Program-made: the position numbers and the translations under genes
Source: Parelaphostrongylus tenuis
Lineage: Eukaryota > Nematoda > Chromadorea > Rhabditida > Metastrongylidae
Direction of reading: 5' to 3'
DNA: 64,000 bases
NCBI GenBank assembly: GCA_019055375.1
Contig: JAHQIW010007224.1
Span: 62,001 to 126,000, forward strand
Notes under the pieces: model-generated
Seen by the model: the letters and a program-made list of their open reading frames with translations, nothing else
Told to the model about the DNA's origin: nothing
The model's database searches: none
Part shown: one piece after another, positions 4,851 to 60,089 of the stretch
How positions within the stretch are numbered: position 1 is the first letter of the stretch
Layout: the number at the start of each line of letters is the position of its first letter

Positions 4851-5169
4851 TTCTTCGTGTGTGGTTTATTGATTTGTTATTGACTTTGCCAGATTCATCG
4901 ATCGTTTTTGGTTCTTCGTTCGAGGTCGGAAATTTTGAATTATGTTACTTGTTTTGCTGAAAATGCGAAATGATCACGGACGACTTTCGATGGAGCCAGC
5001 CACATTTGGTGAATGCTTCGGAGATCGTTCTCATCCGAACGCCCTTGCCCTTCACAATCACTGTCTCTGAGTGGAATCCACCTTCTAACATTCAGAAGTG
5101 TTTGCCTTTTCACGTCTAGGAAGTATGGGTCAAATCCTGAAGTCATTGAACACAAAAAAAAGGATAAAA

Positions 5170-5470
5170 GGATTAAGGATAAAGCTTGCGGCGTCGATCA
5201 ATCCCTGAGGGATGCGTCATGCATTTGACTTCAATTTCTAACTTCGTTTGAGGTGATTGAATGCATATGTGGCCTTTACAATGACTCGCGGTGGCCTCCC
5301 GCTGAACCGAGTCAGTGCTGCTTATCCTCCTAGAGAAGTCTGAGACCAGTCTGGTACCAATTTACCGACCCCGGAGGGATGGATGGCTTGGTGAGCCATG
5401 AGCGCGAGATCGAACCATTGACCTCGTGTGCGACGCAGAGCACCTCTAACCATTGCGCCACATGCGCTCT
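5170..5470 (-). mobile_element. SINE-A, tRNA-derived
   Basis: First of about ten copies of one SINE. On the minus strand it begins GAGCGCATGTGGCGC with an A-box-like AATGGTTAGAGG, then a B-box-like GGTTCGATCTC, and ends in a short tandem tail made of CTTTATCC units (read on the plus strand as repeated GGATAAA). The head is tRNA-derived by box spacing; no intact tRNA is present. Confidence 0.85.
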
Positions 5471-7265: not shown

Positions 7266-10200
7266 ATGAATACGTCGAGTCCGGCTCGGCTGCTTGCCAT
7301 CTATGGTGGCACGACATTCCTTGTCTACATCGAGACAAACGGTTTTGTCAAGGTACTATTGTTCTTATTATATATTAGATTGTGTGAAAAGTTCGTGCCG
7401 TTTTGGTTTTTTTGATATGATTTTTACAAGGGAATATGCATGATTTTGATATCGTTCGAATGCGCATTTTCTTGCGAACATTTCGGTTACCAAATTGCCT
7501 ATACTTGCTTCGAGATGGATCTTTCTTGGGAACAAATTCGCTTGCTACTTCCGCACGAACGGCGCGTAGGGGAAAATGTCTGTGAAGCGGCGCGCAAGAT
7601 GAACGGAGCTTGGGGCGATGATAAGGTTGCAGAAAGGACGGCCAGGAAGTGGTTGGCGAAGTTCTGAGCTGGAGAGAACAGTCTGGACGATCAGTCGCAC
7701 TCGGGCCATCCATAGGAAGTCGATCGTCAGTGTGACCTTGAGATGGCGGAAGAGAATCCCGCTCTGACTAGCCAAATGTTAGCCGAATAGTTCGATTATT
7801 GCTTCAAGACCATAGCTAACATTCTGCATGAAGTGAGTAAGGTCTTAAAGAAGTCAAAGTGGCTGCCACATGAATTGGCGGAAGTCTAGAAGCCGTTGCT
7901 TTCTGCAGCCGGATCATCGCCCCCAAGCTCCATTAATCTTGCGCCCCGCTTCACGAGAATTCTCCCCTACACCCCATTTCGTGCACGAGTAGCAAGCGAA
8001 TTTCTTCGCGAGACAGCTTCATCCTGAAAAAAGCATAGGCAAATTGTATACCAAAATGTTCGAAAAGAAATTTGCAGTTAACGACACCAAAATTATGCAA
8101 TTTCACTGCAAAATCACGTTAAAATGAAAACGGACGGCGCGAACTTCTTGCGCAACCTACTAGATGCTTCAGCTGTGAATAACAGAATAGGCGATATCTT
8201 GATCATTGATGTTTCAGTTCGTAGAGGATCTAGATGAATGATTTTACATGTTGTCAACACAGTGTGTCCTGTAATGATAACTCCACATTCAGAGTTCACC
8301 TCCATTTCTGCTGAGTGTACCGATACTCGGACTTTCATTGCTTACGCTCACAACAAACATGGCTGCAGAGCCAAGGTTCAAAACCTCGGCATCATTTGCT
8401 GTATTGGGTTAGTTTTTCTTCTTGAATTTAATCTCTCAGTAAAATTCCTCATTTTCTTATTTAAGCAAAACACGAGGTGTTACAATAAACTTTAATCGAC
8501 AGCTGACGTTTCGGCAGTTCGCCTTTTTCAGAGCCCGGAAAGGTTAAAATGTCCGCAATCCAATCAGTAAATAAGCAATTAAAACTGATTGGATTGCGGA
8601 CAATTTGACCTTACCAGGCTCTGAAGAAGGCGAACTGCTGAAACCTCGGCTCTCGGATAAAGTTTATTGTAACACCTCGTGTTTGGGTTAAAGAAGAAAA
8701 TCAGGAATTATATTGAAGCATGCCGAGGTTTAGTCACTCAGTTTAGAAGAGATTAAGCTGTAGTTGGTGTTTACCAATTCTTGAAGAGATCGCCACGCAT
8801 TCGGCTTCATAAGGCGTTGTAGAGGTATCATGCCATTCGTTTCGAATGTTTCCTTAAGATCACGCTCAAATTTCAACATGTCCTATAGTTATTTTCGAGC
8901 CAAGCATGTCGCCTGTCTTGGGCACTAATGCAGTGCAATATTTGTGTTTCGGCCTTGCAACCTCGTCAGTTGCACGGTGCCTTTCGTCTTGAGCCAAACC
9001 TCTCGGGAGAACCCTTTACATAGAGTGACCCAAATTCATGGCTCAAAAATGATTATCAGGCATATTGAAATTTGAGCGTCGTCGTAAGCAAACACTCAAA
9101 ATGATAGTATGATATTTCACGAACACCAGCCAAGAGCATCCAGTGTACAAGACTGCCCGTATAGCGATTTCTATCACTTGAAGGCGCGTGTAATTATTAC
9201 GTCTGTGGTTCCTCTATGTGAGTGGGTTTTCCCCCAAGAGGGATTGGCTCAGACCAAGGGCATCGTGCAACTGACGAGACTGCAAGTCCGAAACACGTGT
9301 AATGCACTGCATCAGTGCCCATAAACCACATACATGGCTCAAAAATGATTATCAGGCACGTTGCAGTGGGCATATCTCCAACCTGCCCGACACTTTGCAT
9401 CGACTTACCGATGAATGAATTGGTAGTGCCTCTCACCCAGACAAGTTCGGTAACGGTTTTTCGACCCTTGAGAGATTCACCAAGTTCCATTGCTCTGGCT
9501 TTTCATCGTGGCTGGGTGGCCTCCTTGGGTGTCGACCCTCATATAATCTACACTATGGGCTAAATCTTTACCAGAGTCGGCAAATGTGAAATGGCTGGAT
9601 AATCTCTGTCTCTTAACGATGGCTGTGAGTAAATCTATGCCCGGGCAGGGTTTTGAAATCCCCGTAGGATGTTTCTTGGGCGACTTTGTGTCGCGACGGA
9701 GGTGGATGGAGTTTAGTGATGCTTTCTCATCTAGCTGGATATGAGCACGATTATAAGTGACACATACGATGTTTTGCAGCCTTTTCACGATATTTGCTCA
9801 CCCAGTCTTCCTGGTCATACGCGTTCATGGGCTATCTGTTGGTGTCTCTCGCAAATATCATCTACTGTTACTCGTTCAGGTACTCTATGAGATCTTTCGT
9901 TGAATACGTCCTATTACTTGGCTGTCATTTTCTTTAGAGGCTTTTTTACGGTTTTTCAAAAGCCTTTTATAGCTCTCAAATTCGTTCATGGTCAAAAGAA
10001 TTGACGGTAGTTTCAACTGGATATCTTTTACTGCTTTTCTACTATTGCTTCGCTGACTTACTGATGTCAATACCATCGTTGGTTTTGCTACTGATGGCTG
10101 CAATGGCGACGTCTTGTGTTAATATCGTAGGTGCAGGATCAGTGTGTCAGTATGGTCATGTCAGTGACTATGATGCTGGTCAGGTACGCTGAGGTTTCTA

Positions 10201-11606
10201 TGTACAGTTCCGTCATCTCAATCCTTTTTTCAACCTAGGACAAAGTATTTTTCTCTTTTCTTCCGACTTTCACTAGCCACTAGCTTGAATCTTGGCGACC
10301 TTAATGCTCTGATAACATATTTTGAGCATCTCATGAGGTCTTCTGTGGCACTCATATAGCACAAGACACGTGTTTCGATTACAGCCTCGTCAGTTGGTAC
10401 GGCGACTTTCGGTTCAGTTAGTTCCACTGGGAGATTTCCCCTACATAGAGGAACCGACGCTGCGACGCTGAAATATTTACACGCTCCGTTAAGTGAAGAA
10501 ACCACCCAATAGGTAGTGTTGTACACTCGATTGTTCGAGGCTGGTAAAACATGATTGCCATACCTTTCTTTTCGAGTGTTTTTGATGCATCGCTGGAAAC
10601 AGTTTAATCCCTCCTCTGTGCAGTGGAGATCTCCCGCGGAACTGACTTAAGCGAAAGACAGTAGGCAACTGATGAGGCTGTAATGCCGAAACACGTGTCT
10701 TGCATTGTATAAAAGCCATAAAAGACGTCAGAAAAGTCTCAAAATATCTTATCAGATTATGTTGTCTTGAGCAAAGTCTCAAAAAAGTCAAAAGGAAAGA
10801 TTCCAGAACTACGTTTATTTCCTTGAAAGGCTATCTTAGTGCACTATAGCAGCGAAAAGAGATTGAGTTTCACTTGGCGCGCATGATCGCGCTTATTTTC
10901 GTTATTTATTCAAAGTTTTTTTCTCCTTCTCATCGAAATTTCTGGGTTTTCCGTATCAGAATTGTCGAAGGAACTTTGTTATATCGTTCTATAAACTTAG
11001 ACTTTTATTTTCATTCTATATTGCCAAATAAACCTTATATGAAGCTCAAGCCCAATCCTAGGAGTGCGAAATGTAGCATTTTTCGCTCTTCCAGCGCTCT
11101 ATGAAGACCTTCTGAGAAAAAGAGTTTAGCTTCAGAATTACTCAAGGTTATGCCATCAAATAACTATTAAAGTTCTCTTAAAAGACAATCCACAAACTCT
11201 ACTGAGCAAAAAATTTGCTCGAGTGTTAAAAGAGTTCTTATATTCGCTGCTACTGCACTCTCAGAAGGCCTTTTTGGAAACCAAGTAAACTATCAAATGT
11301 GCCGCGATTTGAGCTATCAATGCTATCGATAGTCTGGAGGAAAAGCGAAAAAGAAAGTGAAAAAAGACTCGGGGTTACGAAAAATACCGATTCCTTTCAC
11401 AAATGTTCTCAGAAAGAATGCCGTTAATTCGCGAAATTTAGGCATCCTACATTCGGCTCGTTGGCACATTAGTGCATACTGCTGCCAGTTCTTTGGTGGT
11501 ATTGAATTTGTTCGGTGAAAGAACCGAGACTCTCTTGTTTGCGTCAAGGATTCTGTTCTACGTTGCACAAGGTCTTCTGTTTCTCGCCAATGAAAGGACT
11601 TTTTGA
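7266..11606 (+). CDS. TMEM86/YhhN-like multi-pass membrane protein, copy A
   Basis: Five exons: 7266-7352, 8293-8407, 9780-9879, 9973-10183, 11442-11606 (678 nt, 225 aa), all with GT/AG borders and consistent phases. The protein is almost all hydrophobic segments (about 7-8): one in exon 1 (LLAIYGGTTFLVY), one in exon 2, one in exon 3 (FMGYLLVSLANIIYCY), two in exon 4 and two in exon 5. It ends SRILFYVAQGLLFLANERTF. The layout, the GY...N..Y segment and the terminal SR...YVAQ motif resemble TMEM86/YhhN lysoplasmalogenases, ER-membrane enzymes that cleave lysoplasmalogen vinyl-ether bonds. Family residues are changed: the GD pair of the third segment reads RY, and the H of the H..Y motif is N, so catalysis is doubtful. 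Copy B at 12843 has the same exon phases and nearly the same exon lengths. Introns hold a foldback mariner, a MITE and two hammerhead-bearing foldbacks. Gene structure is firm; family assignment is tentative. Confidence 0.8.
7378..8165. mobile_element. Foldback mariner relic in intron 1 of copy A
   Basis: The left arm encodes a mariner transposase N-terminus on the plus strand (about 7515-7665: DLSWEQIRLLLPHE, then AARKMNGAWGDDKVAERTAR and WLAKF). The right arm (about 7910-8050) carries the same 5' segment on the minus strand. Outer ends are inverted: AAAAGTTCGTGCCGTTTTG near 7387 against CGGACGGCGCGAACTTCTTG near 8130. No catalytic domain is present, so it is non-autonomous. Confidence 0.8.
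8430..8735. mobile_element. MITE family F1, copy 1, with hairpin core
   Basis: Long terminal inverted repeats of about 100 bases: AACACGAGGTGTTACAATAA at about 8467 is mirrored at about 8663-8683, and the arms meet at ATCCAATCAG. Each arm has the GGCTCTGAAGAAGGCG...GCCGAAACGTC core (8500-8536 minus, 8617-8650 plus). It lies in intron 2 of copy A, starting about 25 bases past the donor. A second copy is at 47345-47815. Confidence 0.85.
8933..8975 (-). ncRNA. Hammerhead ribozyme core, E1 left arm
   Basis: Minus-strand order: helix I GTGCAA, box CTGACGA, helix II GGTT-GCAA-GGCC, GAA, helix III region ACACAAAT, cleavage-site A, helix I partner TTGCAC. Helix I pairs 6 of 6. Helix III has lost its palindrome here, so activity may be weak. 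Prediction from consensus only. Confidence 0.6.
9265..9307 (+). ncRNA. Hammerhead ribozyme core, E1 right arm
   Basis: Order: GTGCA, CTGACGA, helix II GACT-GCA-AGTC plus an extra C, GAA, palindromic ACACGTGT, A, then TGCAC. Helix I pairs GTGCA/TGCAC after one A-A mismatch next to the core. Sense-oriented in the intron of the host gene. Confidence 0.6.
10362..10396 (-). ncRNA. Hammerhead ribozyme core, E2 left arm
   Basis: Minus strand: CAA, CTGACGA, degraded helix II (GGCTGTAATC), GAA, ACACGTGT, C, TTG. Helix I is only 3 bp and helix II pairs poorly, so this arm is probably decayed. Confidence 0.5.
10665..10703 (+). ncRNA. Hammerhead ribozyme core, E2 right arm (complete)
   Basis: Helix I GCAA, box CTGATGA, helix II GGC-TGTAAT-GCC, GAA, palindromic ACACGTGT, cleavage-site C (GUC triplet), helix I partner TTGC. 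All invariant core positions are present. It is in the sense strand of the TMEM86-like copy A intron 4. Confidence 0.7.
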
Positions 11607-15800: not shown

Positions 15801-18094
15801 AGAATTGTTTGTTTCATTAGATTTCCTTGATAAGCAGGCGCACGATTGTTAACAGTAGTACATAAAGGATAAAACGATAAAGCTCTCGGCGTCGATCAAT
15901 CCCTGAGGGATGCGCCATGCATTCGACTTCAATTTCTAACTTCGCTTGAGGTGATTGAATGCACATCTGGCCTTTACAATGACTCGCGGTGACCTCCCGC
16001 TGAACCGAGTCAGTGCTGCTTATCCTCCCAGACAAGTCTGAGACCTGTCTGGTACCAATTTACTGACCCCGGAGGGATGGATGGCTTGGTGAGCCATGAA
16101 CACGATATCGCACCAGTGACCTCGTGTGCGACACAGGGCACCTCTAACCACTGCGCCACATGCGCTCGTCACTAATACATATTGATTATAATGATGGAAT
16201 ACAATAGTGTTCAGTTGTCCCATAATTTCTTTCGCACTACTGTTCCATTCAGTTTCTTCTACTTCAAGTAAATTCATTGCAAAAACACTGTGGTATGTTG
16301 GAGAATGTTTCAGTAGCTCTAGCCAAGAATTAGATATTAGCATACTAGCAGCCAGACCCGCCATCACAACGAAAGTCCAAGTTCCATGCTCGGAAATATA
16401 AGCCTTCGGCTTTCTCGGATTGGCAGGGCATGTTGTTTTGGAAAGTGCTCAACAACAAGCAGACGTGCCATGCCGATATCCACAGAGAACATTCCGAACG
16501 TTGTCCACAGTAGTGCGAGAGAGACGTCCAAAACGACTCATTGTCGCCCTTATCCAGGATACGCTCGACCCTGCACCGCTTTGCAAAGTCGACTAGCCAC
16601 GTTTTGGAGAAACTGGGCTGGACCACGACACCACATTCACCGTACAGCCCTGATATTGCTCTATCAGATTACCATCTCTTCTGCGCCCTGAGTTGACATA
16701 TGTGGGAGAAAAAGCTCAAAAACTACAACCAGCTCAAAAGTGATCTAATTCTTTGTGGGAAGAAGACATCCACTCTTTGCTCAGCAGATAGTTGCATTTC
16801 ATTGATTACGATGGTGATCATATTTTTGATTGATTCATTTTTTTGACCAAATAACCACTGAATTATCAGAAGTGTCGTAATGCGGAAGGAGTTATGAGAT
16901 AACCCAGTTACGAAATGGCTAGAGTTTTGGGAATTTCGTACTCTTCAGATCCTCGGAACGTCAATTTGATTCGCAATCAACTCGATCAGATAGTTCCGTA
17001 TTTCCGGCAGAAAAACGTCAAATACAAATTCTTAGACAGGATACTAAATTTTTGGACACTATCCAAAAATGTGTTTATTGCGTCTTCTGCCGGGGATATG
17101 GAAGTGTTTGATTGAGTGAATTTGGCTCTTCTAGGCTCTGAAGAAAGCGGTATAGCTGCAACGTCAGCCACTGTATTGATATAGTAGTGTTTTCTTGAGC
17201 TGAGGAGTCCGATATCTCCACCCGAAAAGCCCAGCTAAGAGTAAATTGCACAAGAATGACTGCCGTCTTGGTAGATACTAGTCACAAAGTGGTAATCCCC
17301 TCTGATCCACAAGAGCCGACGACTGCTCTAATGTGAAGACGAAATGGGGAAGCCCCGGCTACGCTTACGTCGGGATTACAGGGAATATAATAGCTAACTA
17401 CCAGAGTTTCATTTGCTGCGGTCCGCATGATTGTGAAGACGGACAGTTCAAGCTCCCAAGTAAAAGTGTTATTGTACTCACTAAACACTACTCTTAACCA
17501 TTTCGGGACCGTGGACCCACAGTAGCTGCATCTTCAAAGAGCAACTTTGGATGATGTGCCCCGCCTCCTCTGCATCTCTAACCACCAACGCACTGCGTCT
17601 AACAAATGGCACATTGCTGCGCTTAACACTGGCACGCTAGGGGTTAGAGAAGCAGAGGAGGTGGAGCAGACCGTCCAGAGTTGCCAGCCAGAGATGCAGA
17701 GGCCGTGTGTCCACGATCTCGGAAAGGTTAAGCACCTTGCATCTGCTTTTCGAGGAAATATTGGATTAGTGAATCTATGCCAAGGATAGTCGTTACTGGG
17801 AGTTTTTTTGGGTTTTATGGTCTTCATATTTTGTGCGGAATATGTGTTTTTTTGATTTTATGCGTTACTATGAGTATTTTTATATGGGCGATAAATGTAA
17901 CTATGCAATAGATTTTGGTCTATTTACAGGCCTCCTACATGCGTGTTATCGGAGCACTAGCAATTATGGGAAGCAACACGATGTTCCTGTTTAGTCTGTA
18001 CGAAAGAAGAGTTGAAACCCTACAGAACATGTCCCGAGTCATCTTCTACGCAGCCCAGGGTCTCCTATATCTCGCCAACGAACGAACGTTTTGA
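12843..18094 (+). CDS. TMEM86/YhhN-like multi-pass membrane protein, copy B
   Basis: Five exons: 12843-12929, 13782-13896, 13952-14054, 14530-14740, 17930-18094 (681 nt, 226 aa). Exon lengths equal copy A except exon 3, which is one codon longer; intron phases are identical (0,1,2,0). It starts MEDQATARMLAIYGG and ends SRVIFYAAQGLLYLANERTF. Segment 3 reads ELTMIGYTLVIVANLLYIYS, and exon 4 keeps the YYCFADL...SIP block of copy A. As in copy A, the GD and H..Y residues expected of TMEM86 enzymes are absent (RY and N). The start is supported by homology with copy A; a possible trans-splice acceptor ATCTCTCAG ends at 12809. The 3.2-kb last intron holds a SINE and a mariner fragment. The gene begins 1.24 kb after copy A ends, so it is a tandem duplicate and could share an operon (not shown). 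Family name tentative. Confidence 0.8.
12958..13222 (+). mobile_element. SINE-B, tRNA-Leu/Ser-like head
   Basis: Starts with a tRNA-type A-box region (GTGGCCGAGTGGTTGTGGTG) and continues to a shared 3' body (CTCAACCAGTATTC, GTACTGGGATCCGC-like, then AATAAAGTG). Related copies are at 36246, 57455 and, diverged, 21150. It sits in intron 1 of copy B. Confidence 0.75.
13223..13781. other. Intron 1 of TMEM86-like copy B, remainder
   Basis: No repeat family or exon recognised between the SINE-B tail and the acceptor at 13780-13781. Confidence 0.5.
14985..15180. repeat. AT-rich dispersed repeat (family R2)
   Basis: Shares GCTGGACAAGAA.TTTCCATA, CTTTTATGACGCTATAAAAT and ATTATGTTTGATATCGGCC with the copy at 58115-58360. 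It lies in the last intron of copy B. A further copy in opposite orientation is at about 15480-15650. Confidence 0.6.
15868..16169 (-). mobile_element. SINE-A copy, near full length
   Basis: Full match in layout to the 5170 copy: minus-strand head GAGCGCATGTGGCGC, A and B boxes, and tail units GGATAAA on the plus strand near 15866-15880. Antisense within the last intron of copy B. Confidence 0.9.
16385..16870 (+). mobile_element. Mariner transposase C-terminal fragment
   Basis: Translated pieces include LEKLGWTTTPHSPYSPDIAL then SDYHLFCALS, the hallmark HPPYSPDLAPSDYHLF region of mariner transposases, followed by KKLKNYNQLKSDL. Frameshifts and stops surround it. It lies in the last intron of copy B. 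Confidence 0.85.
17290..17790 (+). mobile_element. Possible RTE fragments
   Basis: GTCCGCATGATTGTGAAG and ACGGACAGTTCAAG near 17415-17450 match the 3' tail of the RTE copy ending near 52290 (GTCCGCACAATTAGTGAAG, ACGGACAGTTCAAG). The following stretch with WHIAALNTGTL (about 17605-17640) loosely resembles the start of RTE endonucleases. Weak. Confidence 0.35.
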
Positions 18095-19295: not shown

Positions 19296-19590
19296 GAGCG
19301 CGTGTGGCGCAGTGGTTAGAAGCGCTTTGGCGCCTTGGGACGCACCCACGTGGTCGATCAGTCGATGGTTTGATCCCGCTCCCAAGACGCATTAGGCCGT
19401 CTATCTCGTCAGAATCTGTGGCCAGACTTGTCTGGGAGGATAGCAGCGCCGGCTATATACGTCGGTGGCTCACCGTGAGTCATTCGAAAGGCCAGATATG
19501 GATCCATTCAACTCGATGGATTCTCGATGAAATGGTATGCATGGTGCATCCCTGAATGGGTCGATCAACGCCGAGAATTCTATCTTTTAT
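19296..19590 (+). mobile_element. SINE-A copy, plus orientation
   Basis: Begins GAGCGCGTGTGGCGCAGTGG, has GGTTTGATCCCGCTC as B-box region and ends with GATCAACGCCGAGA. The only copy of the family in this window in plus orientation. Confidence 0.8.
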
Positions 19591-19640
19591 GCTTTTAGTC
19601 CATAAGATCGACTCTTTTTAGAACCTCGCAGTAAACATTC

Positions 19641-19966
19641 AAAATAATTCCAACAAAAAGAATGTCTAAAGCCTAAACGAGGTTGGTACGCCAGGGCCAT
19701 ACACCGGTGTTTCGGAGGTATCGGCCCCGTCGTCAGACACCCATGCCCCATATTAAGCCCTGCATTGTAGCAAGGAGGGTAGATCAAAATTGATCCATAA
19801 GATCAACTATTTTTAGAACCTTGCAGTAAACATTCAAAATAATTCCAAAAAAAAAGAATGTCCAAAGCCTAAAAGCTGTCTAAGCCGAAACCTTCGAAAC
19901 ACCGGTGTATGGCCCTGGCGTACCAACCTCGTTTAGGCTTTGGACATTCTTTTTTTTTGGAATTAT
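19641..19966. mobile_element. Foldback/MITE with hammerhead-like arm
   Basis: Inverted repeats of about 80 bases: AAAGCCTAAACGAGGTTGG then TACGCCAGGGCCATACACCG on the left, mirrored near 19890-19966. A direct repeat of AACATTCAAAATAATTCC occurs at about 19634 and 19830. On the minus strand the left arm (19695-19742) contains CTGACGA, a GC-rich hairpin, GAA and the palindrome ACACCGGTGT. Confidence 0.8.
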
Positions 19967-20084
19967 GCTTTTAGTGTTTTTTTTTCTCGGTGTTTTTTTG
20001 ACTATTTCGTAGTTCCAATATGCCTGATAATCATTATTTGAGCCACGCATGTCAGTGGTCTGTCAATGAGGGCTGACTTATAGA

Positions 20085-20127
20085 GCCCGATACACGTGTT
20101 TCGATCTTGCGATCTCGTTAGTCGGGC
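20085..20127 (-). ncRNA. Hammerhead ribozyme core, E3 left arm
   Basis: Minus strand: GCCCGA, CTAACGA (G5 changed to A), helix II GATC-GCAA-GATC, GAA, ACACGTGT, A, TCGGGC. Helix I pairs 6 of 6. The G5 change should inactivate it. Confidence 0.6.
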
Positions 20128-20641
20128 AGTTACCCTTTCTCGTCATTCTAGTTGATAGCCACGCGTCGCCCAACAAACTCCTCAAAGGTTTAACGAATTG
20201 GACTACAAAGTTTTGCTTAAACCTCCATATTTGCTGGACCTCGCGACCACCTTCTACCACTTTTTCAAACATTTTGATAGCTTCTTGCAGGTACAACGCT
20301 TCCACAACTAGGAGGATACGAAAACATCTTAATGCTACAGCAATAACCAAACTTATTCCTCGTTGACGAGAATGTGTTGACTATAATGGTTTCTATTTTA
20401 GTTATTAGAGATTTCTTTTTCACCAGGCATATTGAAACTTGAGCTGTGGTCTCAAGAAAACATTCGAAACGAAAGATATGATATATGAAATATACTAGCC
20501 AAGAACAATCGAGTGTACAACACTCTGTGTTCGGTGATAATTTCACTAGACATGGATTTTAAACGTTCGCCGTCGCTAACTCTTAGTGTGGGGACTGGAG
20601 CACCGACACAGGATTGGCAAAAGACGAGAAAGGGTAGCTGC

Positions 20642-20680
20642 CCGACTGACGAGATCGCAAGATCGAAACACGTGTATCGG
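20642..20680 (+). ncRNA. Hammerhead ribozyme core, E3 right arm (complete)
   Basis: CCGA, CTGACGA, helix II GATC-GCAA-GATC (4 bp closed by a GCAA tetraloop), GAA, palindromic ACACGTGT, A (GUA triplet), TCGG. All invariant core residues are present and helix I pairs 4 of 4. Cleavage is predicted after the A at about 20676. Confidence 0.75.
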
Positions 20681-20957
20681 ACTTTATAAGTCAGCCCTCA
20701 TTGACAGACCACTGACATGCGTGGCTCAAATAATGATTATCAGGCATATTGAAATTTGAGCTGTGGTCTTAAGAAAACACTCGAAATGAAAGATATTTCG
20801 TAGTTGTTGTTGTGTGAGTTGGTGGCCAATCACTGTGCTCGAGTGTTCACAGTTCTGTAGGCATTCTGCCGTATTGTTATGATGTGTTTTGTTAGTGATT
20901 TCTGCTCTACTCGTTGTTTTACTCTTATTGTTATTCGTCAAAATTGTTCTTCAAGGT

Positions 20958-20973: not shown

Positions 20974-23900
20974 ATGGCCGAGCAGTCTGGAAGAAAAGCT
21001 GCTCCACCTGCTGGAAGGTGAGCTTACGTCATTTTATAGTTCATTTTACGCATTTTTGCAGACTGCACTCACCGTTTCGTTGAGAAGTATTGGCAAATTA
21101 ATCCAATGTATATCTTTGTATTGTATCCCTTCTTGACTCTTTGTGAGGGGAGGGAGGGGGTGGTCAAGTGGTTAGTGATGTTTGTCGCGGGGTTGGTCCC
21201 TCCCAGCACTCACCTTTGGAAGTCAGGCGGCGTACATTCTGAGGAATGCCCCATCTTAGTCATCCTTAAGACTCGAGATCTGGCTGACCAATTTTCTACG
21301 ACATTAGTTGAGAAGACGACGTCTCCAGAGAAGCGATGAATGCGAGGAAACGTATCGTTTGCCAAGAGTATAGGGATGCGCATAGTATGATTGTGATGCG
21401 GGTCACGTGAAATAAGAAAATAAGATTTATTCGTCATGCCCTGTCCTGTTCGAACCTGATTCTATGATAGCGGCGTCCTTGTTGAGCAGTTTACTACCTG
21501 GGAATGTATTCTTTTCCGGCATAGTTTTTACGTGGCAGAATTTCTTATTATATATACTCAGTGTTATAGAGTGATGTGCAAAACTTTAGCGCCAGGCGGG
21601 ACTACAACCCGCACCTCACTCTTTCTTTCTTCTAGCGTAGAAAGAGCGATGTGCAAAATAAGCGCCAGTAGTGTAACGGATAGAGCACGCATTCTCGGAA
21701 AGAGTGAGGTGCGGGTTCTAGTCCCGCCTAGCGCGAAACTTTTACACATCACTCTACATCAATGGGTATATATTTGTAACATCATACCACCGCAAAAAGC
21801 GGCTAAATTCATTTGATCTAGAATTTCTTAGTGTTTAGGCTTTATGTAAGAGCTGTGTTCACCGGATATAAGCGTGGTCTCCGTACACAATCTGAGCACA
21901 CTGCTCTACTGAAGCTCGAAGGTGTGTATAACAAGAAAGATGCGCAGTTCTACGTTGGAAAACGGGCAGTGTACCTATACAAAGCTCACAACAAAACCAC
22001 AGTGAGTCTTACCTCTAACGCATTCTCAATGAGATTTGTTCTTGAAACTAGAGCAAAATCATGTCTTTTTTCTTTGCAAACCAAACGTGAGATGTTGTTA
22101 TGCGATTTATTTGAGCAGCTGATATTTTGGTCGTTTTTTCCTTCTTCACGACCTACTGAGATCAGGATATCTACAATGCTGAGCTTAATAGGTAACCAAT
22201 CTTGGGAATAAATACAACGTGTATGAGAAAGAGATTTGCGGCTTTCGTAAATTGTTTGGGTCGAAGGTAACCTGACCTTTTGAGCTTCCGGGGAAGGCGA
22301 TACTGCCGAAACGTTAGTTATGCGCTCAAGTTCTACGATAACAACCTCATATTAGGCTTATAAAGAGAAAACTTGAATCATTGAACTGTCCGTGAGGTTT
22401 ATAGATTGTCGCTCTTAAGAATCACTTGAGTGTAATGTTCACTTGTACATAATTCTAGGACTTGCTAATTTCGAAATATGGAGAGTAATCGGTGTTTAAT
22501 AATTATCATTTGAGCCAGAACGTTATGTGGTCTGTTGGTGGACTCTTGTATAGCGCGATACACGTGTATTGACCTTGATAGCTGGATAGCTGCGTCAGTC
22601 TGGCAGGCCCTTCGTTTTTAGCCAATCCTCTCGGTGTGCTCCAGGGCCTCTACTTAGAGTAGGCGACGACGAACGATTTGCACTGCCGTCAAGTGAAATA
22701 AATCACGAGATCGGCAGTGTTGTTCGTCGTCGTTGGTTCGTTATTCTTGCGACACAGACAAGGTTGATGGCTGGATCCCGCGACTCATACTCGACAAGGT
22801 TTCCATTTCTCCGTCTAGTCGGTGGTAGCTGTCTTCATTGAGAGACTAAAACGCTGTCTTGACGCAACGGTAGGCCATTGCGAGATAGTGTAGACCAGGT
22901 ATGCACTTAATCGCCTCTAACGAAGCTTAATATCAGATGCATGGTTTACGCCTCGGGGATTGATGCATGCTGAGAGCTTTATTCTTCATCCTCCAACGTG
23001 GACAAAATCATTGTGTTGACCAAAGCAGGTAGTAGTTTACCCACATATTCATGGATAGTCGTCCTACAACCCAGCAATGTGCATATGCTCTTGTTATTAC
23101 TTGTGTTCATTTATGAAAGCTGATGGCGGTGTAGAACGTGACTGTAGATGATGTCGAAGAAGTTGTTGGCAGTCTTCTATATGCTGGTTAATCCATTGCT
23201 GTTTGTAGCCCATTTCCAACTAGTGTTGCTTGTGTTCATATGGTCTCTTCAATCTTTGCGTGAATCTTCAAGATCATTCGCATGTTGGTAGTATTGAAAT
23301 GCCTGAACCGCTGCTTCGTGTGCAACTATATATCTGTTAATTAATTTTAAACGTTCAATTTGGTTCTTTGGAAAACATGTTGACTAAACCGGCCCTGTTA
23401 TTATTGTGTCATCGATTGCGCTATCTTCTCAGAAACCTGTTAAGAGTTTTTCGGATGCTCAGTTTTCATTTTGAGCCTTATCTTTTAACTTTTGTGGCTT
23501 TTAATTGCTAAAACTTTATGGAAGACGAAGCGATGGGTCTGTCCCATCTAGGACTATGAGACTACATAGTCATCTTTTAGTAGAACCTTCGTTTAGAGAT
23601 TGTTTGATTTGAGCTTTTGTTTAAGTTTAGATTTTTTTTTTTTTTTGAGAAGTCAGAAAGCTGTACCAGCTTAGGAATCCCTGGTGTCTTCATTATTTTT
23701 ATTTTGATCACGACTCAATTCTTTTCGTAGCAGACGTCATAGAACTTGTTATTTGACAAATCTCGCACAGAATAGTAATTGCGTTATTTTACTGATGTAC
23801 AATATCTATCTTTTTACCTTGACATCTAAACTAGAACCGTTTCGAACCATAATTGAAGTTTTTTTTGTTCACTGAGCATCTCTCAAAGTGTTGACTGAAT

Positions 23901-28400: not shown

Positions 28401-31400
28401 GAAACACATCAGATATCTCCAGGCATTAATAGTTTTTTTTTTGAAAATTTGGTTTTTCCGTTATGCGCACCCTGTTGTATCCCCTTGGTATAAACGCGTT
28501 TCACGGTCTTATTCTCAGGGTTTTAGTGGTGATTTTATAAATTAAATCTCGACGATTTCAATGACATATGTAGTTCTTAGAAAGTCCTTCTAGTTAGCCA
28601 GAAGAAGATTGGATTTTGCAAGTGGCACTTTTATTGCAAATAGCGCGTATAGCGCGAATAGCGGTAGCTTTGTGCCAATTTTGCGAAATCCCATTCACAT
28701 ACCGGAGCAGAGAGTGCGCGCCGAGTGCCAAAACCAATCTTATTTGGCTGCTACGGCGCATTCAAAAGCCTTTTAGAAAAACCCAGTACAACGTCGAGAT
28801 CGTCGAGTTTTAAGCTATCGAATGACTGCTAAAAGCCTAGGAGAATAGTCTTGTTCAGAAAGTGCCCGAGTGTGAAACATAATCTTATTTTTACTTTTAT
28901 AGTGCATTGAAAGGACCTTTGAGAAATAAAATACACCATCAAAATTTCGTGATTCTAGCTATCGAATTACTTCTGAAACTTTAAAAAATCAGAAAAAATT
29001 TTTCCCTAAGGACTCGAAACAGGGTGCGATAACGGATAAGTATCCAAAATTCAATCTAAGTTATATACCTGACGCCAATTGCTGACAGTTCGCCAAGCGG
29101 AATGCTCTTATGGGGATCTTTTAAATCACCACTCATGTTCACACCTAAACAAGAACATCATAGAGGCTATATCAAAGCATTGTCAAAAGTCTCTAGTGCG
29201 CGACGTACGGTGAGTACATTATTAAGTACACCATGACAGACCATAGTTCTTTACCTGCTAGTACACCCAGGAAGTTGGCAAAGAAGACACCGAAGACAGT
29301 GAAGAAGGACTGGTGGGAAATGATACGGTTGAAGCCGATCGGTGTGCAGTTCACCATTGCGTACATCGGGACGGCGTTCTCGCGAAGACGTGAGAACGAG
29401 AAGCGCGAGATGCCGTGACCTGCCAGCATAACATTAAACGTGGTGATGAACACAATGGCTTTTCTGACCCCACTTTCTTTCTCTTTCACTGCACTTCAAA
29501 TCCTTTTTTTTTAATTAATTTTACATCTAGGAGATGTTTTCATGTTAAATCACTGGCAGCGCACGCGATTCCTGTCGGATTTTCTAAATGCGGAGAACTA
29601 TTTCCATTAGTTTCTGAATTGTAGTAGTAACGAGACAATTTAGCATTTATATCAACAATTTACACTCTATCACTAATATTGAAATTAGTGCTATTATATA
29701 TGGCAGCCATAACAATATGAGAGGTTACATTACTGCAACTGCTGACTACTCCTTTTCATAGCAATGTATGATGTGGAAAACGACCACAGCGATACTGAAA
29801 TATGTGCATAACTTGGAATTTGTGAGAGGCTTTGAACTCCTTTGAACGCCTTTGTGTGGTCTCACGTCTACAAACGACACCAACCAAAGGCCTTGCTTTG
29901 CTTTTATCGGAACCAGCTGTTTCTCTCTACCTTAGCTCAGGATCTTTGTGATCGTATTTACATCAAATCTTACCATGAAAAAGAATAAACTGTAAGCTGA
30001 AATCAAATTGCGCTTCCGATTGTTCACTTTCATTTCAATTGGGTTTAATGCTTATTTGAGTTCTTCAGATCGTTCTCGTCTATGAATAATTGCTGATTGA
30101 ACGGAGGGAGTTAAAAATGACTGAGCGAATTCGAAGCAGAGGCGTCAGTTGGTGAAGTCTTTCCACGTAAGTACCCTATAAAAGATAAACACGAGTTCGA
30201 AGCTATCATGTTCTGAGTTTCCTGATAATCCAGCATTCTTGTGATTGTTCTCTTTCGGGGTTTCAATCTCTGCTTGTGACTATTACTTTATCCTCAGATG
30301 AAGAAATTACAAGAATTTTTGATGTTCTGACAGTCAGTCTATCAACAACGGTCTAATCTCTTTCGAAACATTTCTAGTATAATTAAGAATTCAGTTTGTT
30401 TGGAGAGTGCATGAGATTTATACCTAATTGTAGCAACTGTTTGAGATCCTAAAGCACTTTTCAATTTTTCTCAAGAAGTGTTGATAATTTACTTGGATCT
30501 GAAGTAAAGAGAGCTCCTAGAAGGAAGTCCAGAACGGCTAAAGCAAGAAAGGCAAGCAGAAGCAGCTGCAGTCGAACCACCCATGACACGCCAGCCGTAT
30601 TGATTCCTGAAAAATAAGAACTCGAGGAACCAGCAAAAACCGTGCCAGCGCTCGCTCATACAAGGTGACCATGGTGCATTGTACAGTAATTTCTAACTCT
30701 AAGCTGATGCGGCTTCAAAAAGAACGAAATCACTTTCAAATCTCTGCATCGCTCGCAATGCATCTATGACTGGAAGATAAACAACAAAGGATAAAGCTCT
30801 CGGCGTTGATCAATTCCTGAGGAATGCGCCATGCACTTGTCTTCAATTTTTAACTTCGTTTGAGATGTTGAATGCATATCTGACTTTTACAATGAATCGC
30901 AGTTGCCTCCCGCTGTACCGAGTCAGTGCTGCTTATCCTCCCAAACCAGACTGGCATCAATTTACCGACCCCGTAGGGATAGATGGCTTGGTGAGCCACC
31001 AACGCGACATCGAACGGTTGACTTCGTATGCGACGCAGAGCACCTCTAACCACTGCCCCACGCACGCTCATCGGCTGGAACATATGAAAAGAAAATCAAA
31101 AAAGCTTGACATACCAGTAAGAACGACGAGAGTGAGAATGGCGATCACTTTGATGAAAAGTCGGCTTTCAGAGTCGAAAAAATGGGCTAAGGATTCGGCA
31201 AATCCGACTGCAACCAAGCCGGTAGCCACTGCCTAAAGAGCGGGTGATACGGTAAATCAAGATCAGTTCCGATAGCTATTTAAATCTAAAATTTGATGTT
31301 ACATTCAGTTTTATTGCAAAATTCACACATGCAATTCCATCGGTTTACATGAGAAGTTCAACAGCTAAATTATAGTACAGACAGTAAAATGTTCGTATGT

Positions 31401-34400
31401 ACACTAATTTTGGCCATTTGGAACCTTTTTCCAACTCTCTAGGCCCCTCTTGAAAGGTTACTCTCATATTTAGAACCAAGTAATAAAGCATTGATCCAAA
31501 AACTAGTTTGCTGATTCTTTGCTTGTCAAAGGATTTAAGGATAAAGCTCTCGGCGTTGATCAATCCTTAAGGGATGCGCCATGCATTCGACTTCAATTTT
31601 TAACTTCGTTTGAGGTGATTGAATGCATATCTGGCCTTTACAATGGCTCGCTTACAGTCTGAGACCTGTCTGGTACCAATTTACCGACCCCGGAGGGATG
31701 GATAGCTTGGTGAGCAATGAGCGCGAGATCGAACTATTGACCCCATGTGCGACGCAGAACACCTCTAACCACTGCGCCACATGCGCTCTTATCTTGCTTG
31801 TTACTGATTATTAAATAAATACTGATTTTAATCCGACGCTTGGATTGGTCTGTACGTTAGGTGTTGAACAGCAAACCGATAGCTGTTGATTATAGAGGAA
31901 GTTCGCTATTAACAAAATCACTGATTTGGCGGCCTTTGAACAGGTGCGTGGTCTTGTGATTTGAACGAACTTCTAAGAAGGAAGGAAGCGAGCTATAAGA
32001 TTGTGTTTTAATTTGGCTGAATTGCTGCTTCCTGGAATGTACGCACGAACGAACTTCGTTGGCGCTTAGGTGATGTTAGATGATGTTCTTTGAGTCCAAT
32101 ATGGTCATCGTTGTAAAAGATCCGTCAGACGATAAGGTGCGGAGAAGATGAAGAGCAGAGGAAGCACGTCTTCATCCTGTTTATCGACGTTCAGCAAGTC
32201 AAAGTTGGTGCATTTCCTCTCTCGCTCTAATTTTTTTTACTATCATTTCGAGTAATTCTTCCTTTTATTTCTGATGTTCGCTGTGTTTTCCATTAAAAAG
32301 CCACTGCAGCAGGTTTTTAACTTGTCCAATATATCACGCTCGAATCTCGGTCTGATAATCCTAGTAAAAACCAGAATTCCGCTTCGTTCATATTTTAAGT
32401 TGAGCATGAAGATTCTGGCGCTACGCACTTGAGTATTTCTACGATATCAACTAAATTTTATTGTATTTTAAAAAACAGACATAAGCTCTTTCTTTTTTTA
32501 CTTTCCTTCGTTTCTTTGCTCCTTTGTTTGCATCAAAATTTGATTATTTTCGATCATATCGCTAGCTATTCAGTTGCATTTAATGTTCGTTGAGTAGTTC
32601 AACGGATAGAAAAATTCTGGCTATGTAAACGTCAAATTCGCTTTATTATGCGTTTGACATCCCTGAGGAATCCTTGAGAGGCGCCATGCATTTGGCCTCA
32701 TCCGTAGTATTTTAGGGCCCCTTATTTCTGTAGTTAAGAGGATACGAGGTTACTAACAAAACGATCCAATCACTACATTGACGTTTCGGCAATTTCGCTT
32801 CATTCAAAGTCTGGAGGTGTCAAATTGACGTGCACTCTACTCAGCCAAACACTTTCATAACCATACTAGACGAGAGTTATCACATAAATGCTCAATCGTT
32901 TAGTAAACAGTAAACATTTTGTACTAAACTCCTTCATCTTTGACCATAAAAGTGTTTCGCTGAGCAGTGCGCGTTGGTTTGAGTCTTCCAGGCTACGAAG
33001 GTGTAACGGGAGACGTTAGCCATCGCTAATGTCCTTTCAACAAGAAAAATATGGAATTATTTGAAAAAGCTGAAGTGAAGGGATGGTCGGTCCTGAGCAA
33101 GAAACAGTTGGCTGTGTTTGTACAATGACTTGCCGTGCTTAGTAAATCTTTTTATCATCCAGATAAGTCTTGCACCAATTTTGACGATCCAAAAAGATGT
33201 AAGCTTTGTGTGGTTTTAAGCGCTTAATCGGACCAAAGCTCCTTGCAGCCTATCTCCACCCACTGCTTTACGCGCCCAACATTGATTCACGTTGATATGT
33301 TATAATTGCCAACAGTGCTGTTAAAATAGAATGAGGAGATCACTCTATAGGTTTTGAGCATATATCCTTTAAACTGAGCTGGTCGACACCACTGAAATTT
33401 TGACTCACCTGTCCCAGAGCGTAAATCAGTCCAACAGCGCCGCCCACACGGCCACCCAGCACGTGGGAAACGAGAGAGTAAATTCCTCCACTCTAGAAAA
33501 ATTGGATTTGCAACTCAATGAAATCCAATGTTTCAACAAAAAATTGAAAATTATTGGCAGTACATATCACTCATAGAATTTAGACTGGATTGTGACTACA
33601 GAAGCGCTAAATATTACGCATCTGCGACAGCTCGTTAGCGAGCAATGCATGATTGATGTGCGATCATAGAGGATCCACATCTACCGAAACATTTCAATTT
33701 CAGAAAGGAAATGGACGTAGTTACGGTCGTAATGTGAGGAAAGGACCCCCCAATAGATTGAAGTCTGCATAAATACAATTCTAACAAAAAGAAAATTGAG
33801 GTAATCTAATGTGTTACCAATTTATGTGAGAAACTAACTGAAAAATTGTGGGTCCCCTGCCTCTGTTTTCCCTGATGAAATTCTCATCATAATAGCACAC
33901 TGATGAATTATAATAATTGAATAGGGACCACTAAGGAATTACCTGAATTTGGCAGCGCTCGACAATTCCAATGGCTGAGAACACCGTGATTAGTGCCAAT
34001 GTCGTACAGAAGCCAAGAAGGAGTATTGCATTAGCGACACCGGCTGTTCCCTTTGAGAAAATTTGTAGCATTAGTTTAATAAGTTCTAGTTTTTTCTCCA
34101 GCGTTAAAGTCGTCAAGTGGAGATTTTAGAATATCATTTAATGATCAATACGGATAGGGTAGTGCTTGAGATAGAAGACATAAGCAGCGAAAAGCTCAAC
34201 GTTACATTCCATACTATTACTTGTTTTAACCCAAACTGATTAATTATGAATCTCAGAGTTTCTCGTATGGGCCTAAGGTGCCGGCTTAATCGAGTTCACA
34301 AATATTTGACACCCGTGACCGTAAAGAATGCTTTCGAGGAGCCCATGAAGCATCCTCAAAGCATGTTTGCACGGGCTGTTCGCTTCGATAAGCGGAACTG

Positions 34401-40065: not shown

Positions 40066-40600
40066 GTAAAACAACGGCTTCTAACATGGTAAAACAATGG
40101 CTTCAACGAATAGAACTTTAAAGTGCGAGGTCTTTCTTTGAATATTACAAGATAAAGAGACCATTTATTTGTACTATTTTTCTTGCATGCGTTCAAGTTA
40201 GTATTTTTGTTTGAACCTTATCAGCCATTGAATCCACTAAATCCTCAGCTATACGAGGAGTTTCGCAGTAAATCATGCCCCTGAATTTCAGGTTTATAAT
40301 GGAAAAATTTCAAATGGATTTGCGACTAAGATGCTCGCCTTTACTTGCTCATTGCGCCAAAAGTTCCCTGCTACAATTGAGATCGTTAGCGGAGGTAGGA
40401 TTTTACGTTGGTTACTCCCGAGTAGTTGGCGCGTTTCAATGTAAAGAAGAAGGGGTCGAAAACGGTTTGAAACAAGCCAGTAATTTTCATACCTTTCGTT
40501 TCGAGTGTTTTCTTAAGATCACGCTCAAATTTCAATGTGCCAAATAATCGTTTTTCGAGCCACGCATGTGGTTTGCTATTTAAGGGCTGACTTATAGAGC

Positions 40601-40640
40601 TCAATACGCCTGTTTCAACCTTGAAGGTCTTATCAGTAGG
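40601..40640 (-). ncRNA. Hammerhead-like core, E5 left arm (decayed)
   Basis: Minus strand CTGATAA (G8 lost), hairpin ACCTTCAAGGT, GAA, then ACAGGCGTA in place of the palindrome; helix I no longer pairs. Confidence 0.4.
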
Positions 40641-40742
40641 GCGGTGTCCTTTTTCACTGGACTTAGAGTGTAAAATGCTCGTCTTCTTTTTTATAGGGGA
40701 CTGAGCGCCCCGAGAGGATTGGCTGAAGACGAAAAGGTTACC

Positions 40743-40781
40743 GCCCGACTGATGGTCATGGTTGAAACACGTGTATTGGGC
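40743..40781 (+). ncRNA. Hammerhead-like core, E5 right arm
   Basis: GCCCGA, CTGATGG (A9 lost), shortened helix II, GAA, ACACGTGT, A, TTGGGC. Helix I still pairs 6 of 6 including one G-U. Helix II region has lost bases, so cleavage is unlikely. Confidence 0.5.
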
Positions 40782-41135
40782 TCTATAAGTCAGCCCTTAT
40801 ATAGCAGACCACATGCGTGGCTCAAAAAATTATTTGGCCAATAATTTTCGTTGGCCGCATGTGTACTATATGGATTTGCACTTGACTTTGTTGTGTCGAA
40901 TCAAATTTGAAATGCATTGGCGTGTCTCCACATAAGACGATTGGTATTCATATCCATTTCGCGAAGATTTTGTAACGATCTAACTAAAATGCATTTGGGA
41001 GAAATTTCAGATGTAGGCTCATTCCTCAAAGTCAATACAAAATTAGGCCAGAGGTAGAAGTAAACAAATATATGACCTAGGAATTGGAAACATATCGAAC
41101 GCAATGTATTCGAGATCTAGATCAGCAGAAAAATA

Positions 41136-41405: not shown

Positions 41406-42949
41406 TCGAGTAATGGTGAATAAATCATTATATGGCTATAGTGTCAACAATTTTTTACGACTGATTATGAATGAAGCTCAGCCTGTCATTATTTTGGACC
41501 GCTGTTCTACTTTCACTGGAAATGAACTCAATTCTTAGATTTTTTCAAAAAGTGAACTTTGCTGAAAAAGGTAATGTAGAAAATAGGTCTGGGATATGAA
41601 ATGAGGTAATAGGGTAAAGATGAATAATGAAGTTCATCAGGTGTCGATTGAACCGATTAACGCGACTCTAGGTATTAGTCTTTGAGAGATCGGTGAGCTT
41701 TTGTGCATCATCTGTAATTTAATAGTGAGCCTCAATATCACTTTGAGGAATCATTTGTGTAAATCAAATTTATCATGTATGTTATCGAAAATAACAAAAC
41801 GAGAAGAGATTGAAAGTTTCGCATAGAGGCGACAAAGTTATTACTCTTGGAACACTAGCTACAATACGAACACTGGCATATTTGGACAACTAACAACCCA
41901 AAATGGACATTTTTTGGTTCACTAAGCAGACCAAAGTCGGCTTTGACAATTTTTGACGTCAACGATCTGACGTGAATTTGAAACGAAGACAAGATGGATT
42001 GAGGCTACGAACTTTGAGAATTACACAGAGAGCTTTCTGACTTACCATCAGAGACTTTATCGCGGAGGTTGCTACCAAACTAACTACTGGAGAGCTTCAT
42101 AAGGTCTGATGGTTCAAAATGGGCCAGAATTGTCTATTTGAGAATTGTCATAACACTCAGAATCACCTCAGATGAAATCGTGAGCTCCTGTTTGTTTAGA
42201 TAAATTATTCATTTTCTACAAAGGCACCGAAATTCAGGCTTATCTATAAATATCACCGGAAAAATCTTTCTCAAAAATTATGCAGGTTGCTGAGTCAAAG
42301 TTAAATAAGTGTCAGCTTATGTTCAAACATGTGAAAAAGTATAAATATCTTGATGAGAAAAGGGAACAGTTTTGAGGAAGTTGGAAGAGTCTCTTAGGAA
42401 TTAGCCACTATAAGGCATGTACAAGTCTTCCGACGTCCAGATGAAAAATTATCACATCCTGATTCTCCACGCGTGCTACTCCAAATCTCACTCGACAATC
42501 ACATTTCCTCACTCGAAATTGAGTCAAGTAGGAGGGCTGTATCATATTAGTGGTAGCTGTTTCAAACTCAAAGATACTATCTTGCCGATTGAAGAACTTG
42601 CAGCACTTAATCTGGGCAAGATTTTTTTCAGGCATCAGTAAAATGGCAGCCACTGCATATCACCATACATTATTTTCAGAGTAAAAGGCCCCAAATTGAT
42701 TGAGAACAAGCATGAATTTTGCAGAAAAAAAAAGTCTGACCTACTTGACATCAGTGTGTACCACACCGTCTACCTATTGCTTGTCGTCTACGAGCTCTTC
42801 ACTCGAGCTATTCTAATAACATTGTTATAAGTAGGAGTTTTTATAAGTCTAACGTTTCAGAGCTCCAATCGTTAGCTAAAAAAAATTTATTTTTACCAAA
42901 TTCGTTCTAGCTACTCAGTAAACAAGTGAATATATGGTTGATTATTTGT

Positions 42950-43115
42950 GTTCGGTGAAAATCTCACCGGACATAAAGTGTAAAATATGCGTCGTCGCCT
43001 ACTCTTAGTATTCTATACTATTAGAGGACTTTGCGCCCCGAGAGGATTGCAAAAGACGAGAAGGGTACCGACCACACATGCGTGGCTCGAAAAATGATTA
43101 TCTGGCATATGATCA
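42950..43115. mobile_element. Hammerhead foldback family, fragment E6
   Basis: AGTGTAAAATATGCGTCGTC, GCCCCGAGAGGATTG, AAAAGACGAGAAGGGTACCG and CATGCGTGGCTCGAAAAATG match the right half of E3/E5, but the segment holding the ribozyme core is deleted. Confidence 0.65.
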
Positions 43116-46060: not shown

Positions 46061-47344
46061 AGTTTTGACATTCTGCATACAGATATCATTCTGAGCATAC
46101 AAACTTCAATACTCTTAATGGATGCCGTCCTCCATTTTGAACGGCAGTCACGTCAAGGGAAACTCTTCAATTAGCGGATTCTTCGATTTCCTTCCTGTAA
46201 TCAACAACTCCGACAATAATTATGAAGTAGTTCTATAAAAGCTATCAAAGTTACTATTGTTCCCCGGGAATCCATTGTGGTGTCGAAGTGAATAGTTATT
46301 ACAGATATCAAGGAGTGTCTATGAATTATGAACGCTTCAATGACGCTCGCCCAAATTTCCTTTGTGAAATGTCACAATTTTCGTTTTATTCTTAACATCT
46401 TCGGATTTTGATAAACTTCTCAATCTATAGAAAACAGGCTGTTTGCAGTAATTTCATGAAACGTTAAATCTCAATCCATAGATTACCAAGAATACCGAGC
46501 TTTTGCGTTTGCTTTACTTCATCCACGCTTTCGCTCTGCTTTTCTTCTCGTATGTGTTTTAGCTCTAAACGTTGTCGGTCAGCAATTATCCGTGAACAAG
46601 ACTGATCTAGAGAGCACATGTCAGTATTAGACCCAGATCATTTGAAGACGTGGTTGAAACTACAGTCTCAATGTTGTTTATTGCCTAAATCGTTTCTCAG
46701 CGGCAGGTCAGATGACACATATTATCATAAAAATGTTGAGATATGAATGTATGTCGCGGGTGGTTGCTGAGACCGACTGCTCACGATTGTAGTACGGTCG
46801 AGTGAGAGGTAGGACGAGGGCCTCAATAATGCTATGTGAACGCGCGTGCCCTACAAGCGGCAGATGAAATTCAAATCTTTTTTCCATGTATCAGCTTCAA
46901 GTTTTATTCGTATCTCAGCATCTTTGAGGGTAAGTCAGGTGCTAGACTTCGTCTCGAAGAATGACAATACTGAATAAGCTTTATAATCATTTTTAAATGA
47001 ACAACGAAATTATATGTTCGATATAGATTTTTTTATGCGCCTAATTTCGCACACTCCTTCACAACAAAGAAAACAAGAAAGATGATTCACTGAATAACAA
47101 TAACTGTAAGGAAAATCATAAAGATTTATATTCCAAGAAAGCGCAGTGGTAAAAACAAGAACTTTGGAAAAACACATTGAAGAAAACAATTCAAGTACTT
47201 GAAGTCATAGTCATTGCGAAACAATAATAATAAATTTAAAAAAACATGCAAACAAGGAAACGATTTCAGAATGATGTAGTAATGAGGAAAATACGAATGA
47301 GTAAAACAACTCAGTCAATCAAAGATTATTATGCAATACTATAT

Positions 47345-48557: not shown

Positions 48558-60089
<11,532 letters not shown>

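Follow-up and report, generated by a model that had tools for sequence, protein, structure and literature searches.

The element E3, at positions 20015-20793 of the window (the whole 64,000-nucleotide stretch of DNA analyzed here, with a G+C content of 41%), is interpreted as a single insertion of a non-autonomous retroelement of Penelope type that lacks an ORF and was moved in trans, with both nicked strands of the target serving as primers. We put the probability of this reading at about 0.7, on the basis of the architecture, end classes, target duplications, variable junctions and hammerhead conservation shown in the sampled copies. The first-pass annotation described a foldback element at 20010-20750. 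That element is real, but the insertion spans 20015-20793 and is flanked by TATTTCGTAGTT, its right end lies about 40 nt beyond the inverted repeat, and 20148-20423 is a mariner remnant. E3 is probably a single insertion with a 12-bp target duplication rather than a foldback transposon, and consists of the following features:

20003-20014, no strand: left target-site duplication TATTTCGTAGTT, an exact 12-nt repeat
20015-20147, minus strand: unit copy in inverted orientation, truncated at its 5' end, with the short outer end and no tail
20085-20127, minus strand: left-arm hammerhead with full layout and a G5-to-A change in the core
20148-20423, plus strand: mariner remnant, a C-terminal transposase fragment with stops and a frameshift, fused to the unit
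20424-20793, plus strand: 1.17 direct copies of the 317-nt unit
20424-20479 and 20741-20796: 56-nt direct repeat, 317 nt apart
20640-20682, plus strand: right-arm hammerhead with all invariant residues
20755-20793, plus strand: tail portion outside the inverted repeat, the long outer end
20794-20805, no strand: right target-site duplication TATTTCGTAGTT, the same exact repeat

The arms (20013-20147 and 20620-20754) are 135 nt long and 96% complementary. A match as good as that of the target duplication was found in 1 of 2985 random pairs, with the borders having been chosen after the repeat was noticed, and the duplication was also recovered with automatic boundaries (locus L001, which is E3). 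The peptide of the mariner remnant that spans the frameshift matched the SETMAR transposase in a search of PDB sequences (E = 1.7e-9), and a Pfam scan of two shorter mariner peptides gave no match. At locus L002, the same mariner piece meets the unit at the corresponding position, with 94% identity and without an inverted arm. Given this shared mariner-unit junction, the long cDNA of E3 was probably copied from a linear RNA that started upstream of the unit and was uncut at the ribozyme. Upstream of the transposase remnant of L002, positions 1440-1515 appear to resemble a mariner terminal repeat, and an internally deleted mariner may have been the 5' partner of the fusion. E3 has no frame of at least 110 aa and no RT or GIY-YIG ORF, so that it is at most a non-autonomous Penelope derivative. 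Ten long frames from the family loci contained no Penelope ORF; for these frames, Pfam gave RVT_1 in L040 (outside the element), a weak sub-cutoff receptor match in L019 and no match for the other eight; the open frames that overlap units in L028 and L029 match no Pfam family.

The window contains three further elements (E1, E2 and E5) that have a common layout with E3, two lone decayed copies (E4 and E6), and a separate element of like architecture, F0:

8826-9363, no strand: E1, relative with hammerheads at 8925-8978 (minus strand) and 9262-9315 (plus strand), a direct repeat at 9030/9326, a tail at the left end only and no convincing target duplication
10298-10801 (outer limits approximate), no strand: E2, relative with hammerheads at 10351-10402 (minus strand) and 10660-10713 (plus strand), a tail at the right end and no convincing target duplication
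19587-19599 and 19963-19975: target duplication of F0, TTATGCTTTTAGT, exact over 13 bp
19600-19962, minus strand: F0, with a 195-bp direct repeat, an inverted arm and the palindrome ACACCGGTGT
22499-22699, minus strand: E4, lone decayed copy with a hammerhead remnant at 22545-22607 (E = 0.011)
40489-40836, no strand: E5, relative with decayed hammerheads at 40591-40645 (minus strand) and 40740-40789 (plus strand), a left-end tail and a near-perfect target duplication (40476-40488 and 40837-40849)
42947-43110, plus strand: E6, lone decayed copy without the hammerhead part

Judged by eye, E1, E2 and E5 each have a tail at one end only; the arm with the tail is the shorter one in E1 and E2, contrary to the trend in the family. 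F0 adjoins E3 on the left, its palindrome differs from that of E3 and its hammerhead looks decayed. Other repeats in the window include tRNA matches at 21662-21735 and 52911-52984 inside an inverted repeat pair (21645-21753 and 52893-53001, 87% complementary), which suggests a tRNA-derived SINE; a dispersed family at 5153-5452, 15851-16150 and 54441-54740, with partial copies at 30778-31070 and 31528-31789; and a further inverted-repeat family with close arms at 8436-8716 and 47341-47818 (87% and 90% complementary). The proteins closest to an RT ORF at 50977-51552 are from Angiostrongylus cantonensis (71%) and Necator americanus (64%), which makes a strongylid-like nematode the likely source.

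As had been noted from the letters of the DNA, the right arm of E3 carries every invariant hammerhead residue in order (20640-20682), and the left arm (20085-20127, minus strand) has the same layout with a 6-bp helix I and a change of G5 to A. With the type I invariant core CUGANGA/GAA/UH and helices I-III as the standard, the right arm passes and the left one fails at G5; cleavage of the right-arm hammerhead is predicted between 20676 and 20677. In the covariance-model check that had been suggested, Rfam Hammerhead_1 (RF00163) found the right arm with 29.7 bits and an E-value of 4.6e-5, which refers to a 1-kb search, but this score is below the gathering score of 34. The left arm had no Rfam hammerhead match even at E-values up to 10, the right-arm hammerhead was absent from both whole-window Rfam searches (at gathering scores and at E-values up to 2), and no Rfam hammerhead match was found in E1, E2 or E5. 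Among other loci, Hammerhead_1 scored 27.7-30.3 bits in L006 and L020, also under 34, and had no match in L017, L022 and L036. Rfam matches to miRNA, CRISPR and snoRNA families fell below their gathering scores and were put down to chance or palindromes. A pattern scan of the window with one core mismatch allowed found three loci (both arms of E3 and one arm of E2), and the same scan of 200 first-order simulated 64-kb windows found 10 loci in total; thus, hammerhead patterns are more frequent in the window than expected by chance. Looser hammerhead matches are present in both arms of E1, E2 and E5.

A model made from the eight arms of E1, E2, E3 and E5 found these arms again, necessarily, and also the decayed copy at 22545-22607. 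The expectation that the helices are kept as pairs was borne out in these arms, in which 85.7% of the pair cells are paired. Both sides are altered in 6 of 13 pairs, including 4 of 6 in helix I, whose sequence varies between subfamilies while pairing is mostly kept; the doubly changed pairs are found mainly between subfamilies. In shuffle controls, the covariation score and the number of cells paired were each reached in 0 of 500, doubly changed pairs in 14 of 500 and further pair types in 323 of 500, and sliding the pair partners removed most of the covariation signal from these eight arms of four related elements. Helix III of E3 is the 8-nt palindrome ACACGTGT. The minimum-energy structure of a single strand is not the hammerhead, and that of an unconstrained dimer is a double hammerhead. 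The dimer energy itself was reached in 20 of 500 shuffles, and the energy gain over two monomers is ordinary, being at least as large as observed in 268 of 500. The short palindromic helix III matches published Penelope-like elements, and the dimer fold agrees with the earlier suggestion that such hammerheads can act as dimers, although the energy gain is not unusual. The hammerheads of E3 are supported by sequence, covariation and conservation in the family, and their self-cutting is predicted.

A search of the genome (481.5 Mb in 5105 contigs) with E3, as had been recommended, found many relatives, with 5895 first-look candidates. The family sample is the best 40 of these 5895 loci, E3 included (212 matches), from which three apparent duplicates were dropped to give 37 distinct loci; since the sample holds the top-scoring candidates, its frequencies are not unbiased. 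The 317-nt unit was mapped onto the best 40 loci and numbered from the predicted cleavage site. In these loci, units share one orientation, form tandems or stand head to head, and their inner ends vary; 26 of the 37 distinct loci from the best 40 of 5895 are head to head and 11 have a single orientation. The outer ends in the best 40 loci fall into two classes about 50 nt apart: among 69 chains longer than 60 nt (best 40 of 5895, with duplicate loci counted), the end lies 60-89 nt beyond the cleavage site in 28, 110-139 nt beyond it in 34 and elsewhere in 7. The 5' starts of the units in the best 40 loci are spread out, with a peak 40-59 nt past the cleavage site that could stem from the choice of loci and carries no weight in the argument.

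The two end classes are mostly paired within the sampled insertions. Among the 26 head-to-head loci from the best 40 of 5895, 21 have one short end and one tail end, one has two tail ends (L013), one has two short ends (L018) and three are unclassified (L007, L011 and L024). The 21 of 23 classifiable loci correspond to a binomial p of 6.6e-5 in this sample from the best 40 of 5895, and show the Penelope trait of an inverted terminal copy with a tail on one. The tail arm is the longer one in 19 of these 21 loci, with a median of 392 nt against 145 nt (best 40 of 5895). Target duplications, another Penelope trait, score at least 9 in 25 of the best 40 loci and in 16 of 4000 random pairs; the counted ones include low-complexity (L010 and L031) and element-overlapping (L036) cases, and some reach into the element. 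Their length is 12 nt in 14 of 24 non-duplicate loci from the best 40 of 5895, other lengths also occur, and 13 of the 37 distinct loci in the same sample have no convincing duplication. L031, L037 and L039 have distinct target duplications and nearly the same inner junction, with unit starts near 46 and at 9-13, hinting at preferred end points of the cDNA. Arms within a locus mostly do not share variants (2 of 25 loci above the 95th percentile), and comparison of arm likeness within and between loci for 36 pairs gave a mean rank of 0.45, with 4 of 36 at or below 0.05. The arms of one locus are thus mostly no closer to each other than to copies at other loci, so that their sequences do not show a common origin.

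The hammerhead is among the least variable parts of the unit. Of 62 copies that span the motif (37 loci, best 40 of 5895), 31 are identical with a perfect 6-bp helix I, and 46 of the 62 have an intact core and helices by our criteria; the G5-to-A change in the left arm of E3 is found in 1 of the 62. Divergence per site in the best 40 loci is 0.027 for the hammerhead and 0.063 for the rest of the unit. Only 5 of 317 windows along the unit diverge less than the hammerhead, and the lowest of them sits 4 nt away and overlaps it. This low divergence makes constraint on the hammerhead likely, though not proven.

Based on these features, we propose a mechanism whose enzyme, order of priming, template form and ribozyme activity are inferred. 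The 317-nt unit carries a minimal type I hammerhead; the two outer ends, read as start sites of reverse transcription, lie approximately 70-80 nt and 115-137 nt downstream of its predicted cleavage site. A linear read-through or multi-unit RNA would be bound in trans by a Penelope-like RT/endonuclease, and the target would be nicked on both strands approximately 12 nt apart. On one strand, reverse transcription would start at the distal site and give the tail end; on the other strand, it would start some 50 nt from there, at the proximal site. The cDNAs would halt at variable points and their inner ends would be joined head to head, so that the hammerheads face outward; the long cDNA of E3 would have been copied from the mariner-unit fusion RNA. 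Hairpin self-priming, proposed by Arkhipova et al. (excerpts of PMC3846280), was also considered and rejected. It predicts symmetric inner ends, and these lie within 15 nt of each other in only 3 of the 26 head-to-head loci (L025, L026 and L027; best 40 of 5895) and more than 15 nt apart in the other 23. This spacing fits two separately primed and joined cDNAs better than hairpin self-priming.

Other routes to such insertions appear less probable. In an animal-type retrozyme, tandem transcripts would be cut to 317-nt monomers, circularized and reverse transcribed from the circular RNA. Direct arrays with three hammerheads in a row are found at L016, L020 and L034 (3 of the 37 distinct loci from the best 40 of 5895) and arrays with two at L026 and L040 (L009 has two per strand, but from separate pieces), and the unit size is inside the 170-400 nt given in excerpts of PMC7229834. 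The non-unit mariner sequence 5' of the unit in E3 and L002, however, points to a linear template that had not been cut at the ribozyme, and rod-like folding was not found in the two units tested (z = -1.54 and -0.40), which are not markedly self-paired. Moreover, retrozyme hammerheads are described as canonical and minimal ones as Penelope-type or dispersed in the portions of the literature consulted, and the word "inverted" is absent from PMC7229834. We regard this route as improbable. A SINE mobilized by a LINE such as RTE, with the inverted arm formed by ordinary twin priming, is slightly less probable still. LINE twin priming yields head-to-head inversions, RTE-like RT sequence is common here and RVT_1 is found in L040; however, the two outer-end classes, one of each in most head-to-head insertions, are a Penelope feature in the literature, as are tandem units and minimal hammerheads.

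A DNA transposon of the classical foldback or MITE type, with inverted repeats as its defining part, is very improbable: the 135-nt, 96% complementary arms with a 12-bp duplication alongside are in its favor, but 11 of the 37 distinct loci (best 40 of 5895) lack the inverted arm, L004, L020 and L028 with target duplications among them, arm extents differ, inner ends vary and an extra tail is usually present at one end. Constant inverted termini in all copies were thus rejected, as the outer ends also differ. The foldback element of the first-pass annotation is not supported, and its inverted arms more likely arose when the element inserted. Nor can the outward-facing inverted hammerhead arms be called undescribed, as had been suggested; Penelope elements are known to have inverted terminal repeats on which a tail is optional (excerpts of PMC3846280), so that there is nothing new in the arrangement itself.

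Returning to the Penelope-type insertion, we extend it tentatively, with somewhat less than even confidence, to an ORF-less hammerhead family of probably thousands of copies that may be moved in trans by Penelope machinery with ordered dual priming, in which the distal site would be used first for a long cDNA and the proximal site second for a shorter one. The single-tail inverted repeats of Penelope would then be a signature of two-strand priming and not of self-priming on an antisense template. In the E3 family, many small insertions can be read together for the outer and inner ends on both sides and for the duplicated target, so that the competing models can be compared by counts. The family also connects small hammerhead units structurally with integration of the Penelope type; Penelope-type machinery is a likely helper according to a review on retrozymes (excerpts of PMC7761336). 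The biochemistry of 2024 accounts for the tail by two RT start sites (PMC11167929).

Inverted pLTRs, the tail, hammerheads in pLTRs and dispersed minimal hammerheads are already known from the published work, as far as its excerpts go. Penelope has direct and inverted pLTRs with an optional tail on one inverted pLTR, target duplications of 8-10 bp and captured unrelated sequence, and the origin of its inverted repeats was left open in 2013 (excerpts of PMC3846280). In work with a purified Penelope protein, both strands were cleaved and extended, two RT start sites marked the limits of the tail, and hammerhead mutants still gave RNA insertion; counted from the start of the ORF, the hammerhead is cut at 26 bp and RT mainly starts at 111-118 bp, and the main text offers no explanation of inversions (PMC11167929). 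Among the open-licence papers listed, no title or opening of an abstract dealt with ORF-less head-to-head hammerhead elements in nematodes, and the two papers that join twin priming, Penelope and inverted have other subjects, judging by how their abstracts begin.

Among known systems, the non-LTR retrozymes of animals (excerpts of PMC7229834) resemble the E3 family in their small, non-coding units, some of which are in tandem, and in their type I hammerheads; the E3 family differs in its minimal palindromic hammerhead, its head-to-head insertions with a tail and, for E3, the suggested linear template. Minimal type I hammerheads are found in Penelope elements and at dispersed non-coding loci (Cervera and de la Pena 2014; Luense et al. 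2017, both via excerpts of PMC7761336), and many animal genomes have thousands of them, mostly dispersed in non-coding DNA (PMC7761336, same excerpts), so that the E3 family may be one such set. In these excerpts they share the very short helix III. What sets the dispersed copies of the E3 family apart is that their unit is defined, their ends are Penelope-like and target duplications flank them; their cleavage is predicted. The Penelope-like elements compared are Pen2a of Adineta vaga (excerpts of PMC3846280) and Poseidon PAc of Anolis (PMC11167929). The E3-family copies examined differ from them in having no recognized RT or GIY-YIG ORF, a unit of only about 300 nt and duplications that are most often 12 nt rather than 8-10. 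Like the E3 family, however, Penelope-like elements have head-to-head inverted and direct terminal copies with a tail on one, target duplications and captured foreign sequence. In PAc the hammerhead lies shortly upstream of the RT start sites, as it does of the putative ones in the E3 family, and the spacing from cut site to RT start in the Penelope element of PMC11167929 resembles that of the E3 family.
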